Below are positions 6,566 through 56,085 of a stretch of DNA of 64,000 nt, piece by piece. Position numbers and translations under genes: made by a program. The stretch's first letter is position 1; each line of letters begins with the position of its first letter. The stretch comes from Jaapia argillacea MUCL 33604 (lineage: Eukaryota > Basidiomycota > Agaricomycetes > Jaapiales > Jaapiaceae): contig KL197713.1 of the NCBI GenBank assembly GCA_000697665.1, forward strand, positions 1,824,082-1,888,081. Direction: 5' to 3'. The notes under the pieces were generated by a model. The model was not told the DNA's origin. It searched no databases and saw only the letters and a list, made by a program, of their open reading frames with translations.

Positions 6566-8401
6566 TTAACTTGAAATGCTCCTGGCAGACATGGTGGTTC
6601 CAACGACCGTAGACCCAGGACAGCGCTCGCGGTTGGCAAATTTGATTTGCGATAGTTCAACAGCGAATCCACCATGGAGATGTTCGGACATATCTTTGCG
6701 AGCGTTCAAGCTGAAAGTTCTCATTTAGATTCTAGAATCACTCCGTCAAAAAGGGCTGACCTCGCAAGGAAGGAATTGGCATAAACTAGTTGGGTTAAAG
6801 TTAGCGTTATCTCCAGACAGTATAAGGAAATCTCGTCGTACGTTTCCCTTGTATGTTGATCAGGACAATGAATAATAGATTTCCTGGAAGAGCCAGATAC
6901 TGGAGGGGAGACGATGTGTCAGTGTCGCACCCGAAATCTCCGTCACAAATCATACCGTGGTTAAAATGAGGATGGAAGTGACGCTAAAGTTTATCATCTG
7001 AGTTCCCATTAATGAATGTGATGGAGTGGAGAACTCACGAGGTAAGAGCGCTGGTGTGAACCGTACTAGCCATCAATCGGCGAACCACATCGCCAGTCCT
7101 GGATCTCCACACATTCTCAGCCGTTGCCTCCCAACGCAGAAAGAGGAAATTCCTACGATGCTAGACCGCTTTTCGCCCTCCAGAGATAGTAGATCAACGC
7201 TCCTGAACAGACCGAGTCCAGGATCACAGACGACGAAATTCCGAGAACGATCGTATGCTGAACCAGGCGTCAGCGCTGTGTGGCGTTGGGAGAATGAGAG
7301 ATGTAATAAACCTTGCAAGTGATACATTTGGCGTCTGGAAATCGGCCAGCGCGAAACCTGGTAGAAATCCTTTGAGCGAAATGACTACTCAGGAGACAGT
7401 GCCAAAATAACGGACATTAGGACTGCGTTAGCTGCGACAACCTGAAGTTAGAAAATTCAAAGGACACTGGATGAAAATAAGATAAAAACGAACCGGTGGC
7501 AGCCCCTGCAGAGAGTCCAAATCACTAAGCACAAGGAATCGCAGTGCATCGACAAGAGACTTGCCGTATCTCAGAAAGCCGAAGACGAACTACCAGTAGC
7601 ACAAAAATGTCAATTCACTGCTGTTTAATGGAGACAGATGCTCACCATAATGGCCATGAGTGTTATGTTCCGGTTACTCACTAAAACGGTGGTTAAGTGG
7701 ATTAAATTATCAAATCGCAAGGGGGCTCTCACTGATGCAAACTCGTTTGATGTAGTAGCTGGTCGGTTTCGTGAGAGAGGACAGGGATTGGAGGTTACTG
7801 GATAATTACCTATGCACCAAACCAGCTATTAAGACCTAGAACGATAGCGGCCGAGTGAGAGAAAAGATTTATGTCGAGGGTAGCTTGAACATACCGTCAT
7901 CAAATATGCTGGCTACCGTGAACAAGGATTACATGGCTGGAAATGGACTCCAACAAATGCATCAGGCTTACCACGCAACTCCTAGTCGCAGAAGGACGGT
8001 CAGAAACTTCGTGGGCCGATGGATATAAAGGCACGCGTACGTGGGGATGGTTTCAAGATATTTAAAATCCCCGAAATGAGGGATGAGATATGAATATATG
8101 GAATGAATGCAGAAGGCTGTGTGCGCTGATTCCAGAATGAAGACAAGCCCGACCTATGCGTCGGTGTTAACTTGGACAGGACTGTCGTAAAGCGCTGCAC
8201 GTACCATGAGCTTGAGAGACCGTTCATCCTCGCGGTAGGCCAGGTAGTAGCTGTACACTTGCACAATGGTGATACCATACAATCTAAACCACGGAATGAT
8301 GAGTGCGACGAACTTGAACGTTCTGGTGTGGGGAGGACAACGGACATGGAGACGATGAAAAATCCAATAAGGAGAGTTCCTTGAGCGTCCTCGATGGCCA
8401 T
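6566..8401 (-). pseudogene. DUF6534-type multi-pass membrane protein, copy 1 (broken acceptor)
   Basis: Mushroom DUF6534-type proteins are about 300-residue, multi-pass membrane proteins of unknown function. This copy starts at the ATG at 8401 (MAIEDAQGTLLIGFF). It continues LYGITIVQVYSYYLAYREDE, then VGLVFILESAHTAFCIHSIY, several very short exons, then a hallmark segment LDSVCSGALIYYLWRAKSGL (about 7155-7220). It finishes with YANSFLAR and LNARKDMSEHLHGGFAVEL. Every exon has a partner in the copy at 54.3-56.1 kb. One acceptor is destroyed: where the partner has aacag before GTGGAGATCC, this copy has aatgt at about 7097-7101. The nearest upstream AG (CTGAG) shifts the frame to a stop. One donor is GC instead of GT, and the tail is longer than in the partner. 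The simplest reading is an early pseudogene. An unrecognised alternative splice could still rescue it. Confidence 0.6.
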
Positions 8402-9860
8402 TGGATTCAAAGAGGGATGGGAAAATGAGGCTTAAGCATTGGAACATTGTGGGATTATACTGCACGGTGGAGGACCCCAGCTGGCGGAAAGAAACTAGCT
8501 AAGAGGTTGGAGGAACGGGCTAACCAGAAAAGACAATCAGGGGATGACCACAGCCAGCACTATTACGGACATACCTACACACCCCAACGGTGGAGATAGA
8601 GAGTATCACGGGAGCCGTATACAGCCCGTGGTCGCAGAGGCGACGCTGCGATGGGGTGCGATCACAAACCGTGTAAGGGACCGGGCGATGGAGCCAATCA
8701 GAACTTCTCGCATAAAATGGGAGCTTGATGCGACCGCAATCAAGGTAGATCGGTTAACTCAACATGGAAACGCGAGTTTATTAATGAATATGTTGACAGG
8801 GCGAGAGCAAGCCGTTTGGATGAGAGACGAACAATCAAGAGATGGGTGCAAGAAAGGGGCAGGCATGGCAAACTGACAGCCGATGCTTGAGCAGTGGTAT
8901 ATTAAGGCGAGAACAATGACTTCGAGTTTGCATCCTGGAGTTGAATCCATTGGGACTCGGACCCTGCTAGTAACAAAGAACAAATTAGACTCGTCCGGTA
9001 ACTCGGGTTGCTTTTGAATACCGGTGCTGTGTCAAAGCTTAAAGTGCCAGATAATCACCGGAATCCCGCGATGAGGCAGGTAACAATCACTTGGGCGCTT
9101 TGGGGAAGCAGACAGTTACCCTATGGAGATCGACTTTGACGCAGTCATTAGCCACGATCCAGTTGTGAGCATCGGATGAAATGGATAAGAGAGAGGGAGT
9201 TTGGCGATTGGACCTTGCCACGCAATGCCTCCGATGTAGAAACTTGTGCTGGTGATCAACGAGAATGGGTGGGCCCACAGAATCCCGGCACAAGGGCGTC
9301 CGTAACGTATGAAGGCCGGATGATACGTGCATCTGAAGGGGAAGATGACGGCAGAAACGGTGAGCACAACGAATGATTTCAAACGAATGAAGTCGCAATC
9401 CGTTGTTCAATAGTGCACAGAAGGACGACATGACGAACTATCTGAAGTATACAGACACACCTGATGGCTAAGGGGCGTACTGGAGACAGAGGCGTAAGGT
9501 GCAATGTAGCCGTGTACCAAGGGTACGGCAGTAACAATGGATCCCCTGCGGAGCGACTAATGAACTAGCTCGCAACCTAGTGAAGCCTGAGGATCACCGG
9601 CACCGGTCAACAGCGAGTCAATCGGCACATCGTACGTACAGAGTGCCGTACGAATTGTGCGTCTAACAGAATTTCACGTATAGTTATGAGTGGGATCAAA
9701 ACAGTGGACGTACTAGGGCAACTTTGGGAATGACACATCCGGTCAGTTGATACACCGGAGAAAACGACGAGGCCCACATAACGAGAGGCCGGTGAAATGG
9801 AGTTCAGTCAAAATTTCGCCAGTCTAAGTGGAATGACGGACATGAAACATACCGAGAATT
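6590..9860 (-). repeat. Left arm of a diverged 3.3-kb inverted segmental duplication
   Basis: Read on the minus strand, this interval aligns collinearly with 52740-56085 on the plus strand. Examples are the start and exons of the DUF6534-type gene, the block with TATCCATTTCATC near 9165-9177 and 53485-53497, and the block GTTTCATGTCCGTCATTCC at about 9828-9846 and 52758-52776. Similarity covers exons, introns and about 1.5 kb of upstream DNA. By eye it is around 70-80 percent, with small indels. Confidence 0.8.
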
Positions 9861-13529: not shown

Positions 13530-15034
13530 GACTGTGAGATGGTTCAGAAGTCTGGGTGATGGTAATACGCCTGTGTTATACTATGTTGGAGATAAAGTCT
13601 AGGCCAGCCACTCACCAATGAAGGATGTTCGTCAGCCGACTAAGGGGCTAGTAATGCGGAGTGGCGTGGACGAGCGTCGAGATAAATGAGAGACAAGAGC
13701 TTGAATAGACGCTGCGATCCAGTAACCAAGGAGTTTAAAAGGGGTCGGGGGGTGGGCGGCGGGGAGATGATGTGGCTCGGGGAGGTGTGAATGTCTCGGA
13801 TCACAAATGTGCTTAGTCCACAATGCCACCAACACTGGTCATTGTCCCCCTCAAGCACATCCAGTATATATACCCAGCAGAGGTGAGATGACAAGGACAG
13901 AGCGTAAAATAAAATTCATCAGGTAAAGAACCACCATGGCGTGAAGCCCCGACGGCGGTTTGATTGAGAGCCGGACAAGAAATGATGGACCAGTGCGAAC
14001 TGATGGGGCTCGTACACCATGTCAAGGAAAGTCACTAGAGCCGAAAGGGAAAACTCTTGATGAACCGGGTTCGGTATCCTTTGTAACCTGAGAGTGCAGC
14101 GTTGATGTCGGCCAAAGGTCGTATTCTGTCATCACGTACGAAAGATGGCTGTGATTTCCAGTCGTGTCTGCGGCTTATTCGCTGTATGATCCGTCAAAAC
14201 AGGCAGGACGACGGAGAAAATTTGGCGCGGAGAAGTTGCAGGCTCCGCTTCCGACGATAGCTGTGCGTTCGGCGCATGGCTGTGGACGTCGGGCAGCGAG
14301 TTGCTGGTTCGACTCGGGGCAGTGCCCATGGGAGAAGTGACGATGCCAGGCATCCGTGGATCATCCTTACTGCCGGCGTGTTCAGCTCACCGACTGACAG
14401 AATTACCGTTCTGCCCCCTGCTATAGGGAACTCGGTGCTCTTAGTGTGGATATTTGCACTGGATGACTTCATAAAATGTCCACCAAGATAGACACGATGT
14501 CAAGTTTTAACTCAGGATCTGCTGCACGAGACTGCAACGAGGTCGGTCGTGTCGTCATCCGTTCACATGAGGCTAGGGGAATGCAGGAGGACAATGGGAT
14601 GAGGCGGAAGGATGGGGAATGGAGTTGGAACGTCGGAGATCTTCCTAGTCACACAAGAATGATGCCTCGAGATCTATTGAATGGACAACATGGGCAGTAG
14701 TAGGTAGAAACATGTAAGTACGAATGCACAGAGAATCCTGATACATGCACCTGACGAGGGAGAAAGAGATCGGAGAAAGGAGGGAACGAAATCGTATAAA
14801 GACAACTAGTAAAATGCTGATGGGCCACGATCAACGTGCAGAGTGTGTAGAGACAATCAACAACAATAGAGCGTGTCATCATGGCGAGAGAGTGATCACG
14901 AGGGCGCGGACAAAGACGAGGATAACAGAAACCTTTTGTAGACTGCTACAGTGATGAGAAAAGCAGGAGAGTTCGTTTGATCGTTGGGTTGTTCGAATTG
15001 CTGGATGCGGCTGATCGATGGGAGTGTTCGTGAT
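13530..15034. other. Intergenic region between the phosphatase and eIF4A-1
   Basis: The interval holds the phosphatase promoter and the eIF4A-1 3' flank. A minus-strand frame at 14132-14353 is Pro/Ser/Thr-rich and mildly coding-like, and it overlaps a second minus-strand frame at 14194-14472. I could not build a consistent gene. The last 170 bases resemble the 3' flanks of the other two eIF4A copies, at about 17.55-17.70 kb and 20.09-20.27 kb. Confidence 0.4.
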
Positions 15035-16710
15035 CTAGATGAGGTCGCTGGAACAAAGGTGTGAGATAGGAAAGAGAACAATGAGCAAGGATCCCAACGT
15101 ACGCAACGTTAAGGGGCATTTCATCAATCTGAGTGTTATAGAATTCTGGGAAGAACAAATAAGTCTCCATATTTTCACTGCCATCTGCTCGAAACACTCA
15201 CGTTCGATATCTCTCAACATCCTGACGTCCTCGGTGGTGACAAAGTTGATGGCGACTCCCTTGCGTCCGAATCGTCCACCACGACCGATTCTGTGGATGT
15301 AGTTCTCCCTGTTGGTGGGGAGGTCGTAGTTGATGACGAGAGAGACTTGTTGGACGTCAATACCACGGGCGAGGAGATCGGTGGTAATGAGGACACGCGA
15401 AGACCCTGATCGGAACTCCTTCATCAGAACTTCACGCTGCTTCTGGTCCATGTCTCCGTGCTGCGAAACATCAGTTTAAGAGGCTAATCTCGGTAAGAAT
15501 AATAAAATACTCACCATGGCCGAAACGGTGAACTCGCGAGAGTGCATCTTCTCGGTGAGCCAGTCGACCTTCCGCCTAGTGTTGCAGAAGATGACAGCCT
15601 GAGTGATGGTGACAGTCTCATAGAGATCGCAAAGCGTATCCAACTTCCACTCCTCCTTCTCCACAGCAATGTAAAATTGCTTGATACCTTCCAAAGTCAA
15701 CTCATCCCTCTTGACGAGAATCCTAACGGGTTCCCTCATGAACTTCTTCGTCACCTCCAAGACATCAGCGGGCATGGTAGCCGAAAGGAGTACGACCTGG
15801 ATATCCTGAGGCAACAACTGGAAAACCTCATAGATCTGATCTTTGAATCCACGAGATAACATCTCATCGGCTTCATCTAGACAGAAGATCTTGATATGAT
15901 CCGTCCTGAGCGCTCTGCGGTTAATCATGTCGAAAACTCGTCCAGGGGTTCCGACGACACATTGGATGCCCTCCTGGAGACGAGCCATGTCCTCGCGGAC
16001 GTTGGTTCCACCAACACATGCATGGCAAGTGATGTTCATGTAGTCGCCGAGGGCGATGACGACCTTTTGGATTTGTTGGGCGAGTTCACGAGTGGGCGCT
16101 AGGATGAGTGCTTGGCAGCCCTTGATCGACATGTCGAGTTGTTGGAGAATGGAGATGGAGAAGGTGGCGGTTTTGCCAGTACCGGATTGGGCTTGGGCGA
16201 TGACATCGTGGCCCTTGATGACGGGGACGATGGCGCGTTGTTGAATGGCGGAGGGACGCTCAAAACTAGGGCATTAGAGAGTTAGCACGAAGCACACCAG
16301 TCACATACTCCATCAAACACCCGGACCACATGGTGCATGGGCGAGGGGGCAAATATGGGTGATCCGAAAAAATCCAGGGGATGGATTTGGATAAGACACT
16401 CAAATCACAATTCCCACAGAGGCCCAGGGTTTCCGATGGAGTGTAAAACGATTTCCTGCTCACCCGTATGCGTAAATACCTCGGAGAAGTTCGGGCTTCA
16501 ACTCCATGTTATCGAAGCTACATAGTATAGATCAATACATCCTCGCCGTCTCGAAGAGGTTCCCAGTACTCACTTGTCAACAACCTGATCCCAATTGGAC
16601 TCGATTTCGCCTTCGGGTACATCTTGAAGCTGTTCTTCACTATCCCATCACATCAAAGCCGTTAACTAGCTGCTTTGAAGCCCAGAGAGCGCCGGGACGT
16701 ACGCGGACAT
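15035..16710 (-). CDS. TIF1: eIF4A DEAD-box RNA helicase, canonical copy (eIF4A-1)
   Basis: eIF4A is the ATP-dependent helicase of the eIF4F cap-binding complex that unwinds mRNA 5' leaders. The start ATG at 16710 gives MSA, and short exons then build [20 protein letters not shown] and [18 protein letters not shown]. All motifs are present: Q-motif [10 protein letters not shown], motif I AQSGTGKT, Ia PTRELAQQ, Ib [30 protein letters not shown], the [10 protein letters not shown] block, V RGIDVQQ and [10 protein letters not shown]. The C-terminus is rebuilt from short exons as [20 protein letters not shown] plus a final Ile, the classic eIF4A ending. Length is about 397 residues. It is the leftmost member of a three-gene tandem array and the only one with a fully canonical motif set, so it is presumably the housekeeping gene. 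Confidence 0.96.
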
Positions 16711-17189
16711 GATTTGGAAAGTGTTCTCAGATTCTGGTGGTCGACTAGCTATGGTCGACAGTAATTTCAGTGGTGGTTTGGACGATAAAGATCGATAGTG
16801 CTTTGCAGCAAAGGTGAGTCGCTGACAACAAATTTTTGTGCTTGAGATCTGACTCGGGCGGTGCCGATTCTTTCAGAGTCAGCTGCACCCGCAGAGCCTG
16901 CACGGACCCGATGCCACATGGCCACTTCAGTTCCGCTGTGGTAAATTAATGCCAGAGTGCATGTTCCAATTGTTCCACTAGAAATCTTCATTTTGAACTG
17001 AGCCTATCCTACTTGGCGTAAATTACTGACGTGTCCGCGGAAAGTGAGTGTAAGTGCACTCTGCACCGATCAAGCAAACACTCATTGGATCTCCTGAAAC
17101 TTGAGTGGAATTTCTCTCATTACATCTCCTCCTCATTTAACGACCTCGTGAAGACTTACTCGTCTCCACTCTTCGCATCACTTGTTGCG

Positions 17190-17530
17190 AGGTTGCGTCT
17201 CGTTCAATAAAGCTGCGGGTATGTTCGCGTTGGACGACACTGGAACAAATCGAACAGGATGAGATGTGACATCGGCGATGCGAAAGGCGCTGATACCGAA
17301 TGCACGTACCTTCGGTTGTGACATGGTCCGAAGAGACGGCGCTCGACAAGGATAATACCCTGCAATGAAATATTGTCTGAGAACATAGGTACAACTTGAA
17401 CAATGCAGGGGCGAGGGTTTGATACCGAGTAGTGTACAGAAACCATATTACTAGAAACATGCAGGAGAGATCGGTGAATACTCAATGCAAAGCTTCCCAA
17501 GAATTATGTGGTGAAACCCAGAGAATGATA
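17190..17530 (-). repeat. Repeat family A, copy A1
   Basis: The minus strand encodes fragments such as GIILVERRLFGPCHN and LILFDLFQCRPTRTY, matching copies A2 (about 19775-20070) and A3 (about 24655-25000). It lies upstream of eIF4A-1. Conservation is at DNA level over roughly 300 bases, and no open gene remains. Confidence 0.6.
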
Positions 17531-17735
17531 AGACGCTGATGGGCCGTGATCAAGGTGCAGGGTATGTGGCGACAATCAAGAACAATAGAGCGTGTCACGA
17601 TGAGAGAGCGATCACGAGAACGAGGACGAGGATAGAAGAAACCTTTTGTGGAGTGATGGGAAAATCAGGAGAGTTCGTTTGATCGTTAAGTCGTTCGAAA
17701 TTGGTGGTGGGGCTTATCGTTGGGAGCGTTTTGGG

Positions 17736-19403
17736 CTAGATGAAGTCGCTGGAACAAACGTGTGAGATAGGAAAGCGAATGACGAGCAAAAAACCCAACG
17801 TACGCGACGTTAAGGGGCATTTCATCAATGCGAGTGGTATAGAATTCTGCGAGGGGCAGATAAGTCTCTACATATTCACCGCCATCTACCCGAGGCACTC
17901 ACGTTCGATATCTCTCAACATCCTGACGTCCTCGATGGTGACAAAGTTGATGGCGACTCCCTTGCGTCCGAATTGTCCACCGGGACCGATTCTGTGCATG
18001 TAGTTCTCCCTGTTGGTGGGGAGGTCGTAGTTGATGACGAGGGAAACTCGTCGGATGTCAACGCCGCGGGTGAAGATATCGGTGGTAATGAGCATACGTA
18101 AAGACCCTGATTGGAACTCCTTCATCAGGACTTCACGCTTCTTCTGGTCCACGTCTCCGTGCTGGGAGATGTCAGTTCACGATTCTGTACTCCGCCAGGA
18201 CAATAAAATACTCACCAAGGCCGAAACGGTGAACTCACGAGAGTGCATCTTCTTGGTGAGCCAGTCGACCTTCCGCTTCGTGTTACAGAAGATGACGGCC
18301 TGGGTGACGCTGACCATCTCGCAGAGCTCGCAAAGCGTATCCAGCTTCCACTCTTCCTTTTCCGTGGCAATGTAAAATTGCTTGATACCTTCCAAAGTCA
18401 ACTCATCCCTCTCGGCGAGAATCCGAACAGGATCCCTGGTGAACTTCTTTGTTACCTCCAAGACTTCAGTGGACATGGTGGCCGAATGGAGCACGACTTG
18501 GATATCCTTAGGCAGCAACCGGAAAACCTCATCGATCTGATTTTTAAAACCACGAGATAACATCTCATCGGCTTCATCAAGACAAAAGATCTTGATATGG
18601 TCCGTCCTGAGCGCTCTGCGGTTAATCATGTCGAAAACCCGTCCAGGGGTTCCGACGACACATTGGATGCCCTCTTGGAGACGAGCCATTTCCTCGCGGA
18701 CGTTGGTTCCGCCAACACATGCGTGGCAATTGATGTTCATGTAGACGGCGAGGGCGACGACAACTTGTTGGATTTGTTGGGCGAGTACACGAGTGGGCGC
18801 TAGTATGAGTGCTTGGCAGTCCTTGATCGACATATCGAGCTTTTGAAGAACGGAGATGGAGAAGGTGGCGGCTTCGCCAGCATTAGATTGAGCTTGGGCG
18901 ATGACATCGTGGCCCTTGATGACGGGGACGATGGCGCGTTGCTGGATGGGAGAGGGACGCCCCAAACTAGTGCATTAGAGAGTTAGCATGGAGTATACCC
19001 TTCGCATACTCCATGAAACACTCGGGCCATACTTATGGTGCATGCACGAGAGCAAATGCGGGTGATCCGAATAAATCCCGGTGTAGGGTTTGGTTTGGAT
19101 ATGACACCCAAACCACATTTCCCACATAGAGACCCAGTGCGATGGAGTTTATAACGATTTCCTGCTCACCCGTAAGCGTAAATACCTTGGAGAAGTTCGG
19201 GCTTCAACTCCATGTTATTGAAGCTGTATAGGACAGATCAATACATCCTCGCCGTCTGGAAGAGGTTTCTGGTACTCACTTGTCGATAACTTGATCCCAA
19301 TTGGACTCGAATTCACCCTCGGGTACATCTTGAAGCTGTTCGCTATCCCATCACATCAATCCGGTTAACCAACTCGTCCTTTGAAATCCACGTACGTAGA
19401 CAT
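17736..19403 (-). CDS. eIF4A paralogue with inactivated ATPase motifs (eIF4A-2)
   Basis: This tandem duplicate shares exon structure and flanks with eIF4A-1 and is open from the ATG at 19403 (MST, then [19 protein letters not shown]) to the stop after NVADFI. Catalytic motifs are altered. Motif I reads AQSNAGEA, so the conserved Gly-Lys-Thr core including the Walker A Lys is gone. Motif Ia reads PTRVLAQQ (Glu lost). The Q-motif is [10 protein letters not shown] (the aromatic Phe and the Glu are lost). The [10 protein letters not shown] block is [10 protein letters not shown]. Motif V is TRGVDIRR. Motif VI is HRIGPGGQ, losing the arginine-finger positions. DEAD and SAT remain. By family knowledge such a protein should not hydrolyse ATP. 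No stop or frameshift is seen, and every splice site I checked is usable. It is therefore either a pseudoenzyme or a gene in the first stage of decay. Confidence 0.85.
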
Positions 19404-19511
19404 GATTTAGACAGTGTTCTCAGATTCTGGTGGTCGACAGTAAGCTCCGTGATGGTTTGGGTGATAAAGATCGATAGAGCTTTGGAGCAAAAGTGAGTTC
19501 AATATTGATAC

Positions 19512-19770
19512 TCAGAAGCGCCTCAGCCATTTAAGTGGCCAAACCTTGGGCCAAACGGATAAAATTGAACGATGAGGGAACGCGGATGAAAGTGGATATC
19601 TGGATGTTGAGTCTTCAATTTGTTGCAGGACACGCATCTCACCTCAAGATGTCCCTCCAGCAGAACTCTATCGACTTGGTCGGATATCGAGGATCTGGTT
19701 GGGGCAACGCGACTTTGCCACCACCTTCAACATGAAGTTCGTGCTTGTCAATTTCTCGAGTAAAGTCGAA
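19512..19770 (+). repeat. Repeat family B, copy B1
   Basis: Matches 22795-22995 and 24999-25275. Shared blocks include aagcgcctcag at the left end, cttcaatttgttgcagga, and cagaactctatcgacttggtc. It sits in the upstream flank of eIF4A-2. Confidence 0.6.
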
Positions 19771-19774
19771 AAGG

Positions 19775-20070
19775 ATGAGATGACATCGGCGATGCAAATG
19801 GCACTGATACCGAATACACGTACCTTCGGTTTCTGACACTGACACGGCCCAAACAGACGGTGCTCGACAAGGACAATGCCCTGCGATGATCTATTTTCTG
19901 GAAAATAGGTACAACTTGAACAAAGCAGGAAGGTTTGTTGCATACCGAACATGGTGTACAGAAAGCATACAACCAGAAACGTGCGAAGGAGACGACATCG
20001 GTGTATAGTATACTCAGTGCAGAGCTCCCCAAAACCATCTGGGGAAACCCAGAGAATAGTAAGCCCTGAT
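19775..20070 (-). repeat. Repeat family A, copy A2
   Basis: Minus-strand fragments GIVLVEHRLFGPCQCQ and FGISAICIADVIS match A1 and A3. It directly adjoins B1 but in the opposite relative orientation to the A3-B3 pair. Confidence 0.6.
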
Positions 20071-20279: not shown

Positions 20280-22759
20280 CTAGATGCAGTCGCTGGAACA
20301 AAGGTGTGAGATAGAAAAGAGACCGATGAGCGAGAAACTCAACGTACGTGACGTTAAGGGGCATTTCTTCCATGTAAATGCTATAGAATTCTGTGAGGGC
20401 CAAATAAGTCTCAATATTTTCACCGCCATCTGCTCGAGACACTCACGTTCGATCTCTCTCATCATCTTGTCGTCCTCGGAGGTTACAAAGTTGATGGCGA
20501 CTCCCTTGCGTCCGGAACGCCCACCACGACCGATTCTGTGGATGTAGTTCTCCTTGTTGGTGGGGAGATCGTAGTTGATGACGAGAGAGACTTGTTGGAC
20601 GTCAATACCACGGGCGAGGAGATCGGTGGTAATGAGGGCACGTGAAGACCCTGATCGGAACTCCTTCATCAGGACTTCACGCTGCTTCTCGTCCATGTCT
20701 TCGTGCTGGGAGATTTCAGCTCACAAGACTCAACTCGGTAAGGACAATAAAATATTCACCATGGCCGAAACGGTGAACTCGCGAGAGTGCATCTTCTCGG
20801 TGAGCCAGTCGACCTTCCGNNNNNNNNNNNNNNNNNNNNNNNNNNNNNNNNNNNNNNNNNNNNNNNNNNNNNNNNNNNNNNNNNNNNNNNNNNNNNNNNN
20901 NNNNNNNNNNNNNNNNNNNNNNNNNNNNNNNNNNNNNNNNNNNNNNNNNNNNNNNNNNNNNNNNNNNNNNNNNNNNNNNNNNNNNNNNNNNNNNNNNNNN
21001 NNNNNNNNNNNNNNNNNNNNNNNNNNNNNNNNNNNNNNNNNNNNNNNNNNNNNNNNNNNNNNNNNNNNNNNNNNNNNNNNNNNNNNNNNNNNNNNNNNNN
21101 NNNNNNNNNNNNNNNNNNNNNNNNNNNNNNNNNNNNNNNNNNNNNNNNNNNNNNNNNNNNNNNNNNNNNNNNNNNNNNNNTAAATGCTATAGAATTCTGT
21201 GAGGGCCAAATAAGTCTCAATATTTTCACCGCCATCTGCTCGAGACACTCACGTTCGATCTCTCTCATCATCTTGTCGTCCTCGGAGGTTACAAAGTTGA
21301 TGGCGACTCCCTTGCGTCCGGAACGCCCACCACGACCGATTCTGTGGATGTAGTTCTCCTTGTTGGTGGGGAGATCGTAGTTGATGACGAGAGAGACTTG
21401 TTGGACGTCAATACCACGGGCGAGGAGATCGGTGGTAATGAGGGCACGTGAAGACCCTGATCGGAACTCCTTCATCAGGACTTCACGCTGCTTCTCGTCC
21501 ATGTCTTCGTGCTGGGAGATTTCAGCTCACAAGACTCAACTCGGTAAGGACAATAAAATATTCACCATGGCCGAAACGGTGAACTCGCGAGAGTGCATCT
21601 TCTCGGTGAGCCAGTCGACCTTCCGCCCGGCGTTGCAGAAGATGACGGCCTGAGTGATGGGGACAGCCTCATAGAGATCGCAGAGCGTATCCAACTTCCA
21701 CTCCTCCTTCTCCACGGCAACGTAAAATTGCTTGATACCTTCCAACGGAAACTCATCCCTCTTGACGAGAATCCGAATGGGATTCCTCATGAACTTCTTC
21801 GTCACCTCCAAGACATCAGCGGACACGGTAGCTGAAATGAGTACGACTTGGATATCCTGGGGCAACAACTGAAAAATCTCATAGATTTGATCGGTGAAAC
21901 CACGATACAATATCTCATCGGCTTCATCAAGACATAAGATCTTGATATGGTCCGTCTTGAGCGCTTTGCGGTTAATCATGTCGAAAACTCGTCCAGGGGT
22001 TCCGACGATACATTGGATGCCATCCTGAAGGCGAGCCATGTCCTCACGGACTTTCGTTCCGCCAACACATGCGTGGCAAGTGATGTTCATGTAGTCACCA
22101 AGGGCGACGATGACTTTTTGGATTTGTTGGGCGAGTTCACGAGTGGGGGCTAAGATGAGAGCTTGGCAACCCTTGATCGACATGTCGAGTTGTTGAAGAA
22201 TTGAGATGCAGAAGGTGAGGGTTTTGCCGGTACCAGCTTGGCCTTGGGCCACGACATCGTGGCCCTTGAGCGCGGGGACGATGGCACGTTGTTGGAAGGC
22301 AGAGGGACGTTCAAAACTAGGGAATCAGAGAGTTAGCACGAAGCACGCCTATCACACACGCCATCGGACACTCGGGCTCGGGCCATCTGGTGCATGGACG
22401 AGAGCAATGCAAGTGATCCGAAGAAATCCAGGGGCAGAGTTCGGAAAAGACACCTAACTACAATTCCCACATAGAGACCCAGTGTGCCCGATGGAGTGGA
22501 AAACGATTTACTGCCCACCCGTAAGCGTAAATACCTCGGAGAAGTTCGGGCTTCAACTCCATGTTATCGAAGCTACATGCCACAGATCAATACATCCTCG
22601 CCGTCTCGAAGAGGTTCCTAGTACTCACTTGTCAATAACTTGATCCCTATTGGACTCGATTTCGCCCTCGGGCAAATCCAGTCCTTCGCTATCAAAACCG
22701 TTAACCAACTTAAACTAAGTACTTTGAAATCTAGAGAGGGCCGGGACGTACGCGGACAT
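20280..22759 (-). CDS. Divergent eIF4A paralogue interrupted by an assembly gap (eIF4A-3)
   Basis: This is the third tandem copy, start ATG at 22759. Motif I (GQAGTGKT), Ia (PTRELAQQ), DEAD, SAT, RGIDVQQ and HRIGRGGR are intact, so ATPase activity is plausible. Substitutions occur at normally fixed sites: NWD in the N-terminal region is NRD, the Q-motif region has [15 protein letters not shown] is [18 protein letters not shown] is [18 protein letters not shown] is HEDMDEKQ, and the C-terminus reads NVTDCI instead of NVADLI. The gene is split by 361 N at 20820-21180. Because 20375-20819 and 21181-21625 are identical, the 445-base segment has been placed twice. Removing one copy and the N restores a single continuous gene of about 397 residues. 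This is a distinct family member, not eIF4A3 of the exon junction complex. Confidence 0.85.
20820..21180. other. Assembly gap (361 N) with identical flanks
   Basis: The gap is a run of N inside eIF4A-3. The 445 bases to its left (20375-20819) reappear unchanged immediately to its right (21181-21625), so the two contig ends overlap rather than being separated. Confidence 0.95.
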
Positions 22760-24654: not shown

Positions 24655-24998
24655 TATTCTGGGTTTCCCAAGATGGTTATTGTGAGAGCTCTGCACTGAG
24701 TGTACACCGATATCGTCGACTCCACGCGTCTCTGGTTATATGCTTTTAGTACGTCAAGCTTAGTATACAACGAACCCTTGCCCCTGCTTTGTCTACACGG
24801 TTTCACCTATCTTCCGAGAATATCTCACCGCGGGGTATTGTTCCTGTCGAGCCCCGTCTGGCAGGACCACGTCAGAACCGAACGTACGTATCTGCATTCG
24901 GTATCAGTGCCATTCGCATTGCCGATGTCATCTCTCATCCTTTTCGATTTGTTCCAGTGCCGTCCAACGCGAACGTATCGAGGCTCATGCTGTAAGCG
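24655..24998 (+). repeat. Repeat family A, copy A3
   Basis: Encodes the fragments GIVPVEPRLAGPRQNRTYVS and FGISAIRIADVIS on the plus strand, matching A1 and A2 (minus strand). It is followed without a break by B3. Confidence 0.6.
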
Positions 24999-52080: not shown

Positions 52081-54296
52081 GCCATTTCTAGGTGTTATTC
52101 TATTCTGCCATATCCTAACTGTAAGTGGAGGCGCACTCGTCATCTGATCTGGAGACAAATGTTGACCTGAGACCTTCTCTCTCAGTTGACAACAGCCAGG
52201 GAATAAATCCAGATGAAGCAGGAAATCGGTACCCTCGAAAGAATTTCGTAGAGAACCCTCCGACCAACGCGTCATCGGATGTCGATAGTTCGTTTCCCTC
52301 ACTGGTACCGGTGAGGCTCTTCGAGTTGAACGACCTCGCGACTACCATTAGCCCAACGGCCGCGACATAATATCTCCCATGGTGATATTCCAGAAGTGTA
52401 CCATGATATTGATTTGTCGACGTAAGGATTGTGTTGGCCAATAGCTCTATCAACTATCCCATCGTGTCTTCACCTTCGCCGTCCACTTTCTTCCAAGAAA
52501 CAATCATTCGTCCGAAGGTCGTGGCTATAGCCAAAGGGGGCCAGGCCCCAAGGCCGGGATAGCCGATATGAATCGTCCGCGTCAGTCTTTCAATGCTCAG
52601 AGGTCCTGAGTATTCAACTTATTCTCAACCGCAGATCTCTGGCCTCGTGGGGGATGCGAACTCCGAGTAGGGAAATTGGCTCTCCAATAGCCCTGAGGGG
52701 GCCTAACACCAGCCTCGTTGCCTCCAGAAACTTGGTTGTCGCTCTTCGGGTTTCGGTAAGTTTCATGTCCGTCATTCCTTCGAGATTGGCTGGGCTCCGT
52801 TTGTTACGAAATCTTTCCCTTGACGCTCTTTCACCGGCCTCTCGTTATCTGAGGCTCTTCGTTTCTTTCATTGTCTCAACTGACCAGAGGCGTAGCACTT
52901 CCGAAGTTGCCCCGATTTGTAGCTCCACAGTTTTGATCATGAGTATTCGCTGATGTTCTCCCGGGCACACAATCCATACGGCATTCTAACGTAAGGTGAG
53001 CACATTCACTTACTCTTAGCCATTCCCGTCGTCATCCGCATTCGCTAACGTTGGGAGCTAGTTCATCAGTTTCTCTGCGGGTGCAACGCTATCACTGCCG
53101 TACCCTTGACACACGACAGCACGCACCATCCCTACACTTCTGGCTCAAGTACATCTTTTGGCCACCGGGTGTGTCTGTACTTCGGGTATCTGGTCACGTC
53201 TGTCCTTCTGTGCCCTATCGAATGACTGATCTCACGACTTGACTTTTGCGAAAAGGCCTCCTGGCACCGTTGCAAATATTCTGTTGCAGCAACAAAGTCG
53301 CCTACATTACCTCACCACATCTCCTACCAACTTCTCCAAACACACGTATCAAGCTTTCCTCTGATATTCATGTGGTCCGGAGTCAATTGGGCCTGTTCGC
53401 CCACTCTCTTTGACCAGTGCACGGAGATTCATATTCGGAACCATCGGGTGGCGAAATCCAATCGCGAAACTCCCTCTTTCTTATCCATTTCATCTGATAC
53501 ACACAGCGGGGTCGTTATTGATGGCTCTCGTTAAGGTCAATCTCCATAGGGCAATTGTCTCCTTCTTCAAGTTCTTGCCACCTTTCACGAGTCGCCGCTG
53601 GCTTTCCGGTGATCATCTGGCACTTTAAGCTTTGACACAGCACCGGTAGTCAAAAACAACCTGATTTCCCCGACAAGTTTATTCTTCTGGCAGCCTGGGT
53701 CGGGTAGAGCTTTTCTTGCCCCAGCGGATTCATCTCCAGGATGTAGACTCGACGTCGTTGTCCTTGCTCTAATATGCCGCTCAACCATTGGTTTTCTGTT
53801 TAGTACGTATGCCATAGATTGTTGCTCGCCTCTTATCCAATCAGACGACAACCGGACTGTTCACACATCTCAAGGTCACCCTTAATAACCTGGCCCGCTC
53901 CTGATAAATTCTCCGTGGAATGGCTGCGAGATGGCTCCCTAGATCGCAGTTATATCAAGCTCCCGCCTTACGGAAAATGATTCTGATTCGTTCTGTCGCC
54001 CATCCCCTTACGTGATTTATGGTCGCACCAGCATTGCAGTGTCGCGTTTGCGAACATGACCTGCATACCGCTCCCGTGATACTCCCTATTTCCACCATTT
54101 GACACATGCGCTTGGGTGTGAAGGTCTGTCCGTAATCGTGCTGGCTGTGATCTTCCCCCGATTGTACATTCCGGTTAACCCATGCCTTCGCCGTCTTAGC
54201 TGGTTTCTTTTCGACAGCTGGGGTCCTCCATCCTACAGTATAATTTGACAATGTTCACAGTGTTCAGCCTCATTGTCTTGTCCATCTTTCAATCCA
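52081..54296. other. Upstream part of the right duplication arm, no confident gene
   Basis: From 52740 this matches the left arm (9860 down to 8402). A short frame at 53450-53500 encoding NPIAKLPLSYPFH is conserved with the left arm (GPIAKLPLSYPFH), which suggests an older coding or constrained segment. No complete gene can be built. 52081-52740 is unassigned. Confidence 0.4.
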
Positions 54297-56085
54297 ATGG
54301 CCCCCATTGATGAAGCTCAAGGAACTCTCCTCGTTGGATTTTTTTTCGTCTCTATGTACGTTATTCTCTCCAGACCAGGGGGTTTTCGTCTAATTCATGT
54401 TTTCGTCGGATAGATTGTATGGTATCACCATAGCGCAAGTGTACAGCTACTACCTGATCTACCGCGAGGATCACCAGTTTCTCAAGCTCATGGTAGGCTG
54501 AAGCCTTTGCTCAGTCCCGTTCACTTCTGGTTGAAACATCATTTGCATAGGTCGGACTCGTATTCCTTCTGGATTCAGCACACACAGCCCTCTGCATCCA
54601 CTCTATATATTCATATCTCGTCACTCATTTCGGGGACTTTGGGTATCTTGTAACCATCCCCATGTAAGTGTGCCCTCTATATCCATGGCTCGCGAAGATG
54701 TTCACCGGCCCTCCGAGAATAGATCCTGCGTGGTAAGCCTTATATAAATTCGTTGGAGTCCATTTCAAGCGATAATCATTTTCGCAATAGCTTGCCTATT
54801 TGATGACGGTGTGCCTAACATATCTTGTCGATAAATCTATTCTCATCCCGCGGCTATCCTTCAAGGTCTTGATAGCAGCTTTGGTGCACGGGTAATACTC
54901 CAATAAATTCACTTTCCTGGCCTCTCTCACAGTTCAACCAGCCACTACGTTAGACGAGTTTGTATCTGTAAGCTCCCCTTTCAACCTGATGTCTTGACCT
55001 GCTCAGGCTTCCCTACTTTAGTGAGTGACCGGAACATTGCACTGACGGCCATCATGGTGAATATCCCCGATTTCAAACAGTAATAAATTGACGTTTTTGT
55101 GCCAGGTCATCGTCGGCTTTCTGAGATACGGTGAGTCTCTGGTCGACCGGGTACAATTTCTTGTAATTAATGATCTGGCTTCCCCGCAGGCACTGCTGCC
55201 GGTTGGTCGTTTATCACACCCCAATTTTCCTTCCCTCTTACTAAACTAAGGTTTTGTAGCTAACGCAGTTCTAATGTCGGTCGTTTTGCCACCCTCTCCA
55301 TATCAATTCTCTCGCTCAAAAGAAGATCGACCAGGTTTCGCGCCGGCCGATTTGCAGACGTGAAATATGCTAATGGCAAGATTGATGTTCGACTGCTTAT
55401 ACTCCCAACACCACACCTGCTGACCTCTGGCACAGCAAACGATTTTTCTCGGAATTTCGTCATCCGTGATCCTGGACTCCCTCTGTTCAGGCGCCTTGAT
55501 CTTCTATCTTTGGAGGGCGAAGAGTGGTCTACCACCGTAAGAATTTCCTCTCCTATGTATCCATCAGGCCATGGCTGAGAACAGGTGGAGATCCAGGACT
55601 TGCGATGTGATACGCCGTTTGATGGTTGGTACGGTTCAAACCAGCGCCCTTACTTCGTGAGCTCCCCCCCTCCTGAGCGTTCCTCCCCGGGAGCTCAAAC
55701 GATGAGCTTATAGCATCACTTCAATCCTCATTTTAACCACGGTATAGTCGTCTTATGAGTTTGGCTAGGATTTCGGGTGCTAGACTGATGCGTTGTCCTC
55801 AGTATCTGACTCTTCCAGGAAACCTCTTGTTTTTCGTCTTGATCAACATACAAGGAAAACGTGTGGTCACAATTTTGTAGATTTTGTGGGACGACGCTGA
55901 CTCTGACCGTCCTAGTATATGCCAATTCTTTCCTTGCGAGGTCAGTCTTCTTTCCGTCAAATGGTGGAGTTATCCTAGAGCTTGAATGAGAGCTTTTAGC
56001 TTGAACGCTCGCAGAGACATGTCCGAACATCTCCATGGTGGATTCGCGGTTGAGATGTCGCAAATCAAATTTGCCAACCACGAAC
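52740..56085 (+). repeat. Right arm of the inverted segmental duplication
   Basis: Collinear with the minus strand of 6590-9860, including the DUF6534-type gene and its upstream DNA. See the left-arm entry for anchor points. Confidence 0.8.

Follow-up and report, generated by a model that had tools for sequence, protein, structure and literature searches.

The helicase eIF4A is strongly conserved, and inactivated forms of the protein serve in the laboratory to poison translation. The R362Q variant is dominant negative and inhibits translation by preventing the recycling of eIF4A through eIF4F, as stated in PMC10362145. R362K and R365K eIF4A are cited in PMC7470955 as devoid of helicase activity and impaired in RNA binding and ATPase, and they did not stimulate translation in a tethering assay. 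According to PMC11897408, R362/365Q blocks RNA binding. The nearest precedent that we found for a natural counterpart is Utp25, which its authors present as the first fully validated pseudohelicase (PMC9539457). In a helicase survey of Ustilago maydis (2025), one eIF4A gene is named (PMC12511879), and a natural dead eIF4A paralogue was not found in the open-access literature searched, for which one listing comprised the best 15 of 332 matches.

The gene described here, eIF4A copy 2, is the middle one of three tandem eIF4A genes. It resembles eIF4A-I/II (DDX2; Tif1/Tif2 in yeast) in its collinearity over the full length and in both Pfam helicase domains, but departs from these proteins in that the Lys and Thr of Walker A, the Phe of the Q motif, the Glu of motif Ia as well as R362 and R365 of motif VI are replaced. 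It shares with the laboratory variant R362Q the changed arginine of motif VI, but is natural and combines R362P with R365Q and four changes in Walker A. Like Utp25, as described in PMC9539457, copy 2 is a helicase-like protein with defunct motifs that is kept in the genome. However, Utp25 is an essential ribosome assembly protein that is found in yeast as well as in human and has no DEAD sequence, whereas copy 2, a tandem eIF4A paralogue, has DEAD and SAT in place. Our best reading, to which we give slightly less than even odds (about 0.48), is that copy 2 represents a pseudoenzyme of the DEAD-box type on which purifying selection acts weakly. If true, it would offer a ready test of cells tuning eIF4F by a dead eIF4A, and a pseudoenzyme would have been caught next to two siblings, the active copy 1 and copy 3, which is accelerated to an equal degree but has intact motifs.

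A tandem array of three eIF4A genes

The window, that is the whole stretch of 64,000 nucleotides that was analysed, is located at the end of one contig (C5) in a genome assembly of 43.7 Mb and 95 contigs, whose genes and short introns point to a fungus. The three eIF4A genes are arranged head to tail (Table 1). The tandem unit measures ~2.5–2.7 kb and takes in introns, flanks and an intergenic segment of ~300 bp. DNA common to copies 1 and 2 extends ~110 bp 5' of the ATG and 225 bp 3' of the stop codon, and upstream of copy 2 only these ~110 bp can be aligned with copy 1 as a single block. When the DNA of copy 2 was searched against the genome, with the best candidates being scored, the array alone was listed, and the matches listed in a search with the first copy of the intergenic segment were its three places only. 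An origin of copy 2 as a processed retrocopy is ruled out by the retained introns, and an allelic or haplotig duplication by the presence of three tandem units, the shared introns and intron differences of ~17–18%.

The ends of copy 2 are exact, with the A of the ATG at 19403 and the last base of the TAG at 17736 on the minus strand. Its seven exons comprise 1191 nt, corresponding to 396 amino acids plus stop. Internal stops and frameshifts were looked for in the coding sequence and none was found, and all six introns carry GT...AG, i.e. all 12 dinucleotides are canonical. The assertion in the earlier note that the gene is fully open is thereby upheld. As to copy 3, the N run with its exact repeats probably represents redundant scaffold ends, or else a very recent extra partial copy; given this structure, the number of copies in the array may exceed three.

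Table 1. Positions of the eIF4A array, of copy 2 exons and of further duplicated features (window coordinates unless a contig is given).
Feature	Position	Strand	Remarks
eIF4A copy 1	15035..16710	-	canonical, 397 aa; every listed motif intact; conserved gene
eIF4A copy 2, ATG to stop	17736..19403	-	396 aa; catalytic motifs lost
eIF4A copy 3	20280..22759	-	395 aa if read across assembly gap; catalytic motifs largely kept
Copy 2 exon 1 (ATG)	19396..19403	-	8 nt
Copy 2 exon 2	19280..19342	-	63 nt; one in-frame 3-nt deletion vs copy 1
Copy 2 exon 3	19170..19223	-	54 nt
Copy 2 exon 4	18216..18966	-	751 nt; Q motif to motif IV, SNAGEA
Copy 2 exon 5	17903..18161	-	259 nt; carries motif IVa
Copy 2 exon 6	17804..17846	-	43 nt
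Copy 2 exon 7 and stop	17736..17748	-	13 nt
Duplicated unit around copy 1	14810..16819	-	84.6% identity to 17529-19498
~300-bp intergenic segment	17223..17522	.	part of tandem unit; repeats at 19762-20053 and, inverted, 24658-24974; ~77-80%
N run within copy 3	20820..21180	.	361 N; flanks are an exact 445-bp direct repeat, 20375-20819 and 21181-21625
Inverted pair outside the eIF4A array	6627-9234 and 53435-56083		~2.4 kb; roughly 75% identity
eIF4G gene A	C46 from about 83,500		canonical; YDREFLLQF; nearest solved chain yeast eIF4G p150, 2vso_E
eIF4G gene B	C46:77,600-79,900		inverted local copy; N-terminally truncated; MIF4G open
eIF4E duplicate pair	C24:388,223 and C24:405,146		17 kb apart; two of four eIF4E-like places

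Catalytic motifs and eIF4G contacts of copy 2

Copy 2 belongs to the eIF4A family. The Pfam domains DEAD (131 bits) and Helicase_C (102 bits) both score above cut-off, and the protein comprises two RecA-like domains, is collinear with eIF4A throughout and ends in an NVADLI-type tail, NVADFI-stop as compared to EEMPLNVADLI in human eIF4A-I. Among the best candidates scored in the genome search mentioned above, it is closest to eIF4A and not to other DEAD-box genes; the putative eIF4A-III matches copies 3 and 1 at 67–68%. Over 387 aligned residues, 311 are identical to human eIF4A-I in copy 1, 262 in copy 2 and 276 in copy 3. Among the copies, identities amount to 333/396 (1 vs 2), 341/395 (1 vs 3) and 295/395 (2 vs 3).

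For comparison of motifs we used a list of our own, set on copy 1 from definitions of the DEAD-box motifs; residues are given in human numbering. The Q motif, which reads GFERPSAIQ in copy 1, carries F52L, E53G and A57P in copy 2, and Walker A has become AQSNAGEA in place of AQSGTGKT (G79N, T80A, K82E, T83A). Motif Ia changes from PTRELAQQ to PTRVLAQQ (E111V), and motif IVa, DQKQREV in copy 1, carries Q310K at a position where the human residue is E. Five changes fall in motif V (L331I, L332F, A333T, I336V, V338I) and three in motif VI (I357M, R362P, R365Q), whereas GG, Ib, II (DEAD), III (SAT) and IV are the same in both copies. The alignment bears out the four losses that had been read from the sequence before, namely that of the Walker A core, the Ia Glu, the Q-motif aromatic residue and motif VI (HRIGPGGQ for HRIGRGGR). 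The changes in motif V were absent from that description, as was copy 3, which has diverged about equally with its catalytic motifs retained. Copy 2 thus no longer has the intact Q motif, the Walker A GKT and the HRIGRxxR of an active helicase, while it is otherwise collinear with its homologues, which is the sequence pattern of a pseudoenzyme. Some changes, e.g. L212H (just before SAT), Y197D and A57P, look damaging to the fold in our judgement.

Copy 3 retains GTGKT, Ia, DEAD, SAT, V and VI and shows lesser motif changes (A76G, S78A, I58F, N139K, T281A, Q308E). Among alignment columns with the same residue in human eIF4A-I and copy 1, departures confined to copy 2 occur at 16/72 motif and 26/239 other positions (odds ratio 2.3, p=0.018), and those confined to copy 3 at 6/72 and 24/239, respectively (p=0.82).

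Because mutants at R362 and R365 are known to lose these activities, we strongly infer that copy 2 would be without ATPase and without an RNA clamp, and only weakly that it may compete for eIF4G. The earlier designation of the gene as catalytically dead accordingly stands as a strong inference from known mutants. Five positions on eIF4A, R45, D265, E268, D296 and T298, are modelled as contacts to eIF4G (PMC7470955). Copy 2 carries R45Q and D265E and retains E268 and T298; position 296 is Glu in all three copies, and none of the five is changed in copy 3 as compared to copy 1. The D preceding (LV/SI)ELRERKW in eIF4G, presumably the residue that pairs with R45, is kept in both eIF4G genes of this genome (see below), so that R45Q lacks a compensating change. 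At the putative counterpart of human Q783, numbered by residue spacing, eIF4G gene A has Q and gene B has K.

If copy 2 is indeed a pseudoenzyme, it would have arisen via tandem duplication of eIF4A and lost the handling of ATP and RNA, the rest of the protein since being kept by weak purifying selection. It would be expressed and folded, yet neither hydrolyse ATP nor clamp RNA. Most likely, it would occupy part of the eIF4A-binding surface on eIF4G, or on a paralogous eIF4G, in a non-productive manner. It would thereby damp eIF4F as R362Q does, but more weakly, because some of the eIF4G contacts are changed and because strong expression would poison translation.

Selection on copy 2 and competing readings

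A three-branch codon model yielded dN/dS ratios of 0.057 for copy 1, 0.525 for copy 2 and 0.497 for copy 3; these values derive from three sequences without a nucleotide outgroup, and the copy 2 branch includes the stretch between copy 2 and the root. Copy 1 differs from copies 2 and 3 (p=0.0002), and the ratio is below 1 for copy 2 (2dlnL 6.62, p=0.010) as well as for copy 3 (p=0.008). According to the earlier note, a Ka/Ks near 1 on the copy 2 branch together with a lack of expression would have made the gene a young pseudogene; the ratio obtained falls short of this value, and stop codons, frameshifts and splice-site losses are likewise missing from copy 2. Pairwise dN/dS over 395 aligned codons is 0.30 (1–2), 0.29 (1–3) and 0.46 (2–3), at dS of 0.25, 0.23 and 0.29, which is near the intron distances of 0.21, 0.19 and 0.21, respectively. 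By parsimony, excluding 25 positions with three different codons, unique synonymous/nonsynonymous changes number 16/2 in copy 1, 28.5/43.5 in copy 2 and 24/37 in copy 3.

To localize the constraint, 77 DEAD-box motif codons were compared to the 318 others. In copy 2, dN/dS is 0.80 in the motifs (vs 1: p=0.48) and 0.46 in the rest (below 1, p=0.003), whereas the values in copy 3 are 0.28 and 0.55. The contrast between motifs and rest has p=0.062 for copy 2 alone and p=0.048 for the contrasts of copies 2 and 3 jointly. Counting residue changes, 17/49 fall in motifs in copy 2 (copies 1 and 3 agreeing) and 6/40 in copy 3 (Fisher p=0.051). In motif constraint copy 3 mirrors copy 2, and it may be an eIF4A that still works but has become specialised. 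The amino-acid changes in copy 2 are milder than expected from random nonsynonymous mutation (mean BLOSUM62 0.41 vs -0.30, P=0.002), and so are those in copy 3. Between copies 1 and 2 there is a single coding indel, of 3 nt, as compared to seven indel events over 463 aligned bases in introns. Along the gene, the nucleotide changes of copy 2 show no significant clustering (P 0.06–0.19, depending on window size), and GC3 is uninformative as a hint on expression (0.646, 0.651 and 0.641). Of the 164 unique changes of copy 2, 53 are C>T/G>A and 51 the reverse, a balance which argues against RIP-like mutation as the source of its divergence. However, CpG sites account for 21/53 of the C>T/G>A changes in copy 2 and for 199/828 of its C/G sites, an enrichment that is absent from copy 1 (11/37 vs 195/784) and copy 3 (10/51 vs 188/828), so that a mild CpG effect persists in copy 2.

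The absence of stop codons was evaluated by simulating the copy 2 branch, starting from copy 1 codons rather than a reconstructed ancestor and with 0.438 neutral changes per codon. Under full neutrality, 0.65% of 2000 runs remained stop-free. When the branch was constrained at first and neutral for its last 30, 40 or 50%, ~19, 10 and 6% of the runs were stop-free, respectively, and a neutral final ~40% reproduces the observed number of amino-acid changes. The earlier argument that a random pseudogene would have acquired nonsense changes therefore holds for a pseudogene that was free of constraint from its origin (P(no stop)=0.0065), while its force against late decay (~0.10) is only moderate.

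Such late decay, in which copy 2 was long a working eIF4A and recently lost selection with no disabling hit yet, is the main rival and a real possibility, if a somewhat doubtful one. Besides the stop-free runs that also attain the right number of amino-acid changes, it would be in line with the changes that look damaging to the fold, with the borderline motif excess and with the CpG enrichment, which could be a mark of methylation-type decay. The changes that look damaging to the fold and those at CpG count against the pseudoenzyme reading, as do the borderline motif contrasts (p=0.062 for copy 2 alone, p=0.051 for copy 2 vs copy 3), R45Q and D265E at the modelled eIF4G interface, and the mere ~110 bp of upstream DNA that align with copy 1 in one block. 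Moreover, relaxation is common to copies 2 and 3, because copy 3 with its intact motifs has an equal overall dN/dS, and this too speaks against a pseudoenzyme. On the other hand, late decay should strike motifs and rest equally, which is at odds with the fitted ratios for copy 2 given above. When the simulation also allows for splice losses and for frameshifts, the rate of the latter being derived from introns with 70% assumed to break the frame, the probability that the gene stays fully intact drops to 0.006, 0.001 and 0.0002 for neutral fractions of 0.3, 0.4 and 0.5, respectively.

A further reading has copy 2 retained but not fully dead, with weak binding of RNA or partners and in the role of an eIF4A that is regulated, low in activity or RNA-chaperone-like. 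The unaltered DEAD, SAT, GG, Ib and IV motifs fit this idea, and ATPase-deficient E183Q eIF4A1 replaced the wild type in one cell-free assay reported in PMC11897408, in contrast to the tethering assay in the same source, which required ATPase activity. However, R362/365Q failed to substitute in the cell-free assay (PMC11897408) and copy 2 is altered at both positions, in addition to having lost the Lys and Thr of Walker A, which makes this reading distinctly unlikely. Mis-assembly of the array, with copy 2 being chimeric or error-laden, appears more improbable still. The array is evidently hard to assemble, given the 361-N gap and the exact 445-bp redundant flanks in the adjacent copy 3; copy 2, however, is free of gaps and differs from copy 1 throughout exons and introns (5–28 differences per 100 alignment columns) without a frameshift. 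Random sequencing error is an unlikely source, because differences spread in this manner with no frameshift are not expected from it.

Duplicates of the other eIF4F subunits

Each eIF4F subunit has at least one local duplicate in this genome, whereas no close second copy of the putative eIF4A-III and DHH1 (both read by eye) or of PABP (by its MLLE domain) was revealed by the genome search. As a measure of background duplication, the initial 12.6 kb of the window yield one unrelated inverted pair of ~75% identity (one of two candidates scored). Duplication of all three eIF4F subunits is hence not callable as beyond background.

A search of the genome for MIF4G gave eight matches, the two strongest of which lie ~7 kb apart (eIF4G genes A and B; Table 1). 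Pairwise dN/dS between them is 0.17 at dS 0.37 over MIF4G, and 0.35 at dS 0.57 in the linker preceding it, where gene B has in-frame deletions. Gene B is likely under selective constraint, the pairwise value pooling both branches. The YDREFLL sequence of gene A, which we take to be the eIF4E-binding motif, reads YDRGLLP in gene B. In keeping MIF4G, lacking the N-terminal half and carrying an altered putative eIF4E-binding motif, gene B resembles DAP5/p97 (eIF4G2), which is not known to bind eIF4E; it differs in being a local, inverted and truncated duplicate and not a DAP5 orthologue. One could imagine that the degenerate local duplicates form a partial second eIF4F, in which a dead copy 2 would pair with the truncated eIF4G gene B in a cap-independent complex without unwinding activity, whereby translation would be damped or redirected, but we consider this unlikely.

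The eIF4E duplicates share 90% DNA identity over 1.1 kb and 81–87% in flanking pieces. The second eIF4E copy has two 1-nt gaps in exons read as coding, and over one exon of 118 codons the pair shows 14 nonsynonymous and four synonymous differences, i.e. a dN/dS of 0.97 at a dS of 0.054, which is imprecise. Going by its sequence, this copy looks like a pseudogene. It thus appears broken at a DNA divergence similar to that of copy 2, a contrast that helps the case for retention of copy 2.
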